Source: Anaerolinea sp. (GTDB taxonomy: Bacteria > Chloroflexota > Anaerolineae > Anaerolineales > Anaerolineaceae). From it: a stretch of 64,000 nucleotides of DNA. The stretch lies in the NCBI GenBank assembly GCA_020725865.1, contig DYEC01000011.1, positions 186,001 to 250,000 of the forward strand, in the 5' to 3' direction. Below the pieces are notes generated by a model. It searched no databases, had not been told where the DNA came from, and worked only from the letters and a program-made list of their open reading frames with translations. Each line of letters starts with the position of its first letter. Within the stretch, counting starts at the first letter, position 1. Of this stretch, positions 50,005 to 50,167 are shown one piece after another. Position numbers and translations under genes: made by a program.

Positions 50005-50033
50005 TTGACATTCCGCTAACTTTTTACTATTAT
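50005..50033 (+). promoter_or_regulatory. Strong promoter before the SWIM gene
   Basis: Perfect TTGACA (50005-50010), a 17-nt spacer and TATTAT (50028-50033). The start is expected near 50040. Confidence 0.75.
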
Positions 50034-50039
50034 ATATAC

Positions 50040-50130
50040 AAGGATCGGAGAAACCCGTTATGCGATTATCAGGTTCCGACAAAAGAATATAGCCTGTCAG
50101 AGGCACGCGGGTGCGCCGCGTGCCTTTTTG
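50040..50130 (+). ncRNA. Candidate attenuator leader or small RNA
   Basis: About 90 nt run from the promoter to a strong terminator. Near the 5' end TCGG-AACC (50045-50055, 3-nt bulge) can pair with GGTTCCGA (50073-50080). GCCT (50092-50095) can pair with AGGC (50101-50104), and ACCCG (50053-50057) with CGGGT (50108-50112); both would break the terminator stem. I recognise no known riboswitch class. The SWIM gene SD starts about 20 nt after the terminator. Confidence 0.45.
50102..50129 (+). terminator. Terminator in the SWIM leader
   Basis: GGCACGCGG (50102-50110) pairs perfectly with CCGCGTGCC (50116-50124) around a 5-nt loop, followed by TTTTT. Confidence 0.9.
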
Positions 50131-50167
50131 TACACAAAACAATCACCTGAAAGGAGACGGTAAAAAA

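Follow-up and report, generated by a model that had tools for sequence, protein, structure and literature searches.

What controls a small gene that is set apart from its nearest promoter by a strong intrinsic terminator? This question is raised by a locus in a 64,000-nucleotide stretch of an Anaerolinea sp. contig (hereafter the window), in which an earlier note had described a near-consensus promoter, ~60 nt of structured RNA and a perfect 9-bp terminator ahead of a gene for a SWIM mini-protein. We analyzed this leader in the window, in its order and across the phylum.

Layout of the leader in the window

The promoter, the terminator and a Shine-Dalgarno sequence for the SWIM gene ~20 nt past the T-run are all present as the earlier note had described them (Table 1). 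The hairpin is a perfect 9-bp helix, or 10 bp when the closing G-C pair is counted (50101-50110 / 50116-50125), and the segment 50097-50131 folded more stably than 200 of 200 shuffles (z −4.6; shuffles here were of single bases, not dinucleotides). The claim of a structured RNA upstream did not hold up: the fold of 50040-50108 was no more stable than expected (z −0.63), with 47 of 200 shuffles equally or more stable. What had been overlooked is a short predicted upstream open reading frame (uORF), which extends as far as the terminator's base. It reads ATG CGA TTA TCA GGT TCC GAC AAA AGA ATA TAG and leaves a gap of 8 nt between its stop and the terminator stem. A scan of the window for promoters found no site between the terminator and the SWIM gene. 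For the latter, the start of the mechanical ORF call (GTG 50111) was rejected; conservation starts at ATG 50168.

Table 1 Features of the SWIM leader, with positions in the window.
Feature	Position	Strand	Basis
Promoter: −35 TTGACA, spacer 17 nt, −10 TATTAT	50005..50033	+	Matches 11/12 consensus positions
Inferred transcription start (A following a C)	50040	+	In 90 leaders, C/T then A preferred 11-12 nt past the −10's first base
uORF Shine-Dalgarno GGAG	50047..50050	+	Window sequence; G/A-rich peak in relatives
Predicted uORF MRLSGSDKRI, codon 2 CGA, stop TAG 50090-50092	50060..50092	+	Sequence; statistics of frame and stop position among relatives
Intrinsic terminator hairpin, stem AGGCACGCGG / CCGCGTGCCT	50101..50125	+	Folding; compensatory changes in relatives
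Terminator T-run	50125..50129	+	Window sequence; recurs in relatives (T also part of the search rule)
SWIM gene Shine-Dalgarno AAAGGAG	50150..50156	+	Window sequence; GAAAGGAG recurs in relatives
SWIM mini-protein gene, 79 aa, PF04434	50168..50407	+	Pfam match; conservation

The leader is conserved across the order and in part beyond it

We compared 132 SWIM loci of the order, which form part of >258 matching genomes. Automatic rules found both promoter and terminator in 112 of these; the strict terminator rule excluded 17 loci and the promoter rule 3, and several of the 17 show a long-loop terminator (e.g., L023, L028, L094, and L096) that was left uncounted. A terminator ending ≤70 nt from the start codon was found at 103 of the 132 SWIM loci, compared to 7 of 304 non-SWIM genes lying near SWIM genes in relatives and searched with a nearly identical rule, i.e., more often than by chance. 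Promoter, uORF, hairpin with T-run, Shine-Dalgarno and SWIM gene recur in this sequence within the order, the promoter spacer being 17 nt in 97 of the 112 leaders and the commonest −10 element TATACT (70/112). Genus g18 carries the SWIM gene and yielded no leader terminator by rule in the five loci fetched from its seven genomes (L071, L085, L091, L105, and L112).

The uORF and the terminator also recur outside the order, in some of the other orders and classes. Using a more permissive hairpin search, we found a good terminator at 43 of 80 loci outside the order and none at the remaining 37, so many lineages there do without one. Related sequences are not independent, and redundancy was reduced both inside and outside the order. 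Overall, the conservation of promoter, terminator and SWIM gene as one layout is real. Conservation of the leader in relatives, which the earlier note had named as a check on its suggestions, thus extends throughout the order and partly beyond, and it supports the attenuator among them.

Within the 17-nt spacers of SWIM promoters, A-8, T-6, and G-3 (consensus like gACTCnGcnTATACT; window 50011-50027) occurred jointly in 39 of 97 cases and in 1 of 33 other promoter-like sites, a possible extra promoter element or operator.

The uORF ends at the terminator

A uORF start could be assigned in 90 of the 112 leaders, the window included, by start codon and Shine-Dalgarno only (ATG in 81, TTG in 8, GTG in 1); a G/A-rich peak lies 11-15 nt upstream of these starts, which were themselves selected partly by Shine-Dalgarno. 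The uORFs are typically 9-17 codons long, and the hairpin lies a median of 40 nt past their start. At four loci (L015, L030, L082, and L089) the uORF starts just 6-10 nt past the −10 element, as in leaderless messages.

When read in frame, 75 of the 90 uORFs stopped at or in the hairpin, 12 beyond it and 3 early, compared to 7, 29 and 54, respectively, in frame +1 and 26, 47 and 17 in frame +2. The 3 early stops contrast with 33.3 ± 4.5 (minimum 22) in 300 shuffles and, for non-redundant leaders, stops at or in the hairpin numbered 63 of 75 against 25.6 ± 3.7 (maximum 39) in 1000 shuffles. The pattern did not hinge on how the start was chosen: taking simply the first ATG past the −10 element gave 69 at or in the hairpin, 17 early and 17 beyond among 103 leaders (shuffles: mean 29 at or in, maximum 44), and the 22 leaders without a start by the strict rule gave, from their first start codon, 13 at or in, 7 beyond and 2 early. 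Ordinary 3′ terminators behaved differently, only 15 of 90 having a stop codon inside the hairpin or no more than 16 nt from it, and the SWIM gene's own 3′ terminator, found at 68 of 80 loci, lies 11-75 nt past the stop. uORF stops hug the hairpin, unlike those of ordinary genes.

Outside the order, where starts were sought 24-66 nt upstream of the hairpin, 14 of the 43 terminator loci had no start by rule, and the sequences had been inspected by eye ahead of the count, 23 of 29 uORFs under a nearly identical rule stopped at or in the hairpin, 5 beyond and 1 early, whereas 1000 shuffles gave a mean of 13.1 at or in and a maximum of 20. The picture there is less clean than within the order, frame +2 giving 15 of 29 at or in, 12 beyond and 2 early.

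The second codon of the uORF is also distinctive: it is CGA in 39 of 90 uORFs of the order (window 50063-50065), while CGA is rare in neighboring genes, accounting for 9.7% of their arginine codons and for 2 of 303 codons in second position.

In the order, neither the peptide nor the leader body is conserved

Within the order, substitutions were spread evenly over codon positions (44/42/47 at 172 sites each, 15 pairs), information content was near zero past codons 2-4 and almost absent from codon 5 to the hairpin, and no regulatory amino acid stood out among 688 residues (all |z| below 3), so the peptide is unlikely to act as the sensor. Two identical neighboring residues occurred in 34 of 90 peptides, against 28.8 ± 4.3 when shuffled. 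Judged by these statistics, the uORF peptide is not conserved in the order, and selection appears to have kept where the uORF starts, where it ends and the terminator.

The consensus structure of 55 order leaders contained the terminator only, each of its nine pairs showing at least one compensatory change. Folds computed without the right arm of the terminator were a little less stable than those of shuffles and revealed no antiterminator in the 90 leaders (mean z +0.36; 3/90 below −1.5). Hence, while the short segments that the earlier note had proposed as competitors for the terminator arm (ACCCG, and GCCT with AGGC) are present in the window, no antiterminator accompanies them in relatives from the order. 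No pause-like motif was conserved in the base profile of the order, a profile that unconserved pauses would escape. The riboswitch suggested earlier was not supported either: the window had no Rfam match at gathering score, with two sub-threshold, chance-like matches at the leader, and the same search at 20 related loci returned two tRNAs only, both away from the leader. We rejected an aptamer or antiterminator for the order, there being no conserved helix besides the terminator. A hairpin around the uORF start codon (CCGC-AUGA-GCGG) was likewise set aside, as its frequency was not significant overall (28/90 vs 22.0 ± 3.8 in shuffles, maximum 32); with apparent compensation in L059, L116, L063, and L111, it is possibly a subclade feature.

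One family outside the order, f30, has genomes of 1.4-2.1 Mb and six loci (L147, L248, L282, L283, L290, and L291), four of which entered the outside-order uORF count. Inspected by eye, its uORF reads MR(V/I)(V/I)...C-stop and touches the hairpin, and a GTGCT segment directly before the left arm could pair with that arm; a partly conserved peptide and an antiterminator are thus both possible in f30.

The terminator stem is conserved in sequence

The terminator of the leader is conserved beyond its ability to fold. A GCACG..CGTGC stem was found in 84 of 112 order leader terminators and in none of 90 ordinary 3′ terminators (SWIM leaders excluded). At the same 80 loci, 56 of 76 leader terminators carried it, compared to none of the 68 terminators that follow the SWIM gene; at most 11 of these 68 shared any one 5-mer in the left arm. 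We therefore rejected the stem as a common feature of local terminators. Five of its pairs (G-C, C-G, A-U, C-G, and G-C) were unchanged in 50 to 53 of 55 aligned leaders, while the loop varied in both length and sequence. Searching 41 genomes for stem plus T-run as an exact pattern returned 21 matches in 18 genomes, 14 of them at SWIM leaders. A second copy in the window's genome was rejected: the sole other exact match lies inside a 310-codon ORF and is thus not a second unit. Outside the class, most stems differ and the uORF geometry is kept.

Taken together, the order preserves the GCACGC/GCGTGC stem, which is largely restricted to the SWIM leader. This leaves room for protein-responsive control, with the SWIM protein or a different factor as a possible reader of the stem.

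The SWIM gene and its surroundings

The SWIM protein of the window matches PF04434 (E 5.6e-05, 23 bits, above the gathering cut-off of 19.6). Residues C49, C51, C60, and H62 (CxCxnCxH) and the basic residues K8, K11, and R21 of the N-terminal segment are invariant in 26 sequences. Its AlphaFold model has a mean pLDDT of 88, and Foldseek returned no solved-structure match in the PDB at E ≤ 0.001. Counting the window's own, a match was present in 55 of 61 near genomes; among genomes of the order the figure was 258 of 301 and among those drawn across the phylum 235 of 301, the best 80 named loci all belonging to Anaerolineae or Chloroflexota organisms; the leader gives a handle on this widespread and uncharacterized gene. 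In two genomes of family f23 (L136 and L137), the genome search met one TAA within the SWIM match.

Gene neighbors of the SWIM loci suggested no function. The families at 80 loci (L158-L237) were named by eye from their sequences, and Pfam confirmed two of the names, SPFH and GNAT, for the window alone. SPFH/stomatin-like neighbors numbered 27 and GNAT acetyltransferase-like ones 25, the latter lying mostly upstream and on the SWIM strand, while the 17 metallo-beta-lactamase-like and 14 RNase D-like neighbors lay mostly downstream on the opposite strand. In the window, an RtcB-like ORF (PF01139; 50395-51993, − strand) is convergent with the SWIM gene and overlaps its 3′ end; its Pfam match ends at profile position 378 of 426 and the last ~70 residues fall outside, as after a frameshift.

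In the open-access literature searched, we found no paper joining "SWIM zinc finger" with Chloroflexi. For Chloroflexi leader-peptide attenuation, none of the matches listed concerned a SWIM gene according to its description, and for transcription starts in Dehalococcoides the genus went unnamed among the matches listed. Within this literature, no earlier description of a SWIM leader switch was found.

A translation-coupled attenuator as the probable explanation of the leader

We consider it fairly probable that the leader is a translation-coupled transcription attenuator, in which translation of a very short uORF would itself be the sensor, and not the peptide made. Transcription from the promoter would yield a leader whose uORF stops at the base of, or inside, a strong terminator. 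Should the polymerase arrive at the U-run before any ribosome has got to the uORF end, the hairpin would form and an RNA of ~90 nt would be released. A ribosome positioned on the stop codon or the codons just before it would cover the 5′ arm of the hairpin and prevent hairpin formation, and the polymerase would read into the SWIM gene, to be translated from its own strong Shine-Dalgarno. SWIM output would then track how closely ribosomes follow the polymerase. We infer that the uORF is translated, that its ribosome occludes the hairpin, that translation means on and that a physiological signal is read in this way; the off state is the likely default. With the hairpin a median of 40 nt past the uORF start, either a pause of the polymerase or very rapid ribosome loading would be required for read-through.

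In E. coli, when a stop codon was shifted from 28 to 5 bp upstream of a terminator, termination fell from ~90% to <10%, an effect that was lost once translation was uncoupled (PMC4824070). A ribosome covers ~10-12 nt past the decoding site (PMC4824070, PMC4833913). The geometry of the window corresponds to the suppressed case of the stop-codon experiment, which is why we favor an attenuator that reads the arrival of a ribosome.

Not every observation sits easily with translational occlusion. Among the 90 uORFs, 12 pass the hairpin and 3 stop early; outside the order, frame +2 is also often at or in the hairpin; the base profile of the order offers no conserved pause; f30 has a partly conserved peptide and a possible antiterminator segment; and the five g18 loci, by rule, and many lineages outside the order lack the leader terminator. 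Moreover, the conserved sequence of the stem, the CGA second codon and the promoter spacer motif are outside its account.

The stem is an argument for control by a protein, an alternative that we regard as unlikely. The SWIM protein or another, possibly dedicated, factor would bind the GCACGC/GCGTGC stem and stabilize the terminator, while a ribosome on a content-free uORF would oppose it or clear the RNA, making an autoregulated contest of ribosome and protein. The stem is kept far beyond what termination needs, as its near-confinement to SWIM leaders illustrates, and the SWIM protein keeps invariant basic residues near its N-terminus. The loop, however, varies in length and sequence, most stems differ outside the class while the uORF geometry persists, and the structure search gave the SWIM model no solved relative. 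If such control were true, the SWIM level would reflect translation capacity relative to SWIM protein, and the switch between ribosome and protein may be as old as the phylum.

Rather unlikely, too, is a stress leader of the whiB7/vmlR type, in which a ribosome slowed within the uORF by antibiotic or starvation would free an antiterminator and switch the SWIM gene on. It shares the layout of a short uORF ahead of an intrinsic terminator (PMC11550727), and the GTGCT segment of f30, judged by eye, could pair with the left arm. Yet the order has neither the alternative helix nor a conserved stall peptide, and the uORF reaches the hairpin, so that little unpaired RNA would be left downstream of a stalled ribosome for an antiterminator.

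Two further readings have little in their favor. An independent small regulatory RNA whose terminator merely happens to precede the SWIM gene, as the earlier note had also suggested, is improbable: an RNA of ~90 nt that runs from a strong promoter of its own to its own terminator is indeed expected, and the terminator stem is conserved, but the body between codon 5 and the hairpin has almost no sequence conservation and no structure, selection for an open frame is unexpected in a plain RNA, and the window scan showed no further promoter between terminator and SWIM gene. Reinitiation, by which the uORF would deliver ribosomes to the SWIM start while the terminator just trims expression, is more improbable still. 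In its favor, leader genes may raise expression by reinitiation over short distances, with a peak at 10-11 bp (PMC4833913); against it, a median of 63.5 nt and a hairpin separate the uORF stop from a SWIM ATG with its own strong Shine-Dalgarno.

Comparison with known systems

In translation-occlusion attenuators, a terminator lies between promoter and gene and the leader ORF ends at or in it, as is the case for most SWIM leaders counted in the order and outside it. The pyrE attenuator of E. coli has this geometry, akin to that of pyrBI, with a leader ORF running up to or across the terminator. In pyrBI itself (leader gene pyrL), the leader ORF is translated up to or across the intrinsic terminator and tight coupling prevents the terminator from forming (PMC4824070, PMC5021804). 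By analogy, the SWIM leader would work like the pyrBI and pyrE attenuators and differ by gene and length. The pyrBI leader gene measures 135 bp, with pause sites and the terminator inside it (PMC4824070), against the 9-17 codons of a typical SWIM uORF; the SWIM leader further differs in its sometimes nearly leaderless starts, its conserved stem and its phylum, and it precedes a PF04434 gene instead of pyrimidine synthesis genes.

The likeness to other leaders is more partial. The whiB7/wblC (PMC11550727) and vmlR (PMC9226507) leaders also place a short uORF before a terminator and a regulatory or protective gene downstream, but in whiB7/wblC an antiterminator forms when translation of the uORF is disturbed, whereas none was detectable in the order's SWIM leaders. 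The trp, his, and ilv leader peptides share the pairing of leader ORF and terminator; the SWIM leaders of the order have no run of regulatory codons and no antiterminator, and their stop is pinned to the terminator. Attenuators of the B. subtilis rplJL type (PMC4538822) resemble the SWIM leader in preceding a gene for a possible nucleic-acid-binding protein, although the only conserved structure of the SWIM leader is the terminator stem and protein binding is putative. A survey of premature terminators observed that genes of RNA-binding proteins tend to be attenuated more often than other genes (PMC2965389), a trend that fits a nucleic-acid role of the SWIM protein without proving one.

The SWIM leader keeps its uORF start, stop position and terminator across an order and, beyond it, in part of the phylum. 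Most of what is known of ribosome-coupled attenuation comes from single operons. Since the peptide of the order drifts freely while these three features are kept, the position of the ribosome would be isolated here as the selected trait, and the natural variants of the leader, i.e., leaderless starts, other stems, and stops placed either at the base of the stem or within the loop, would allow transcription-translation coupling to be probed beyond E. coli.
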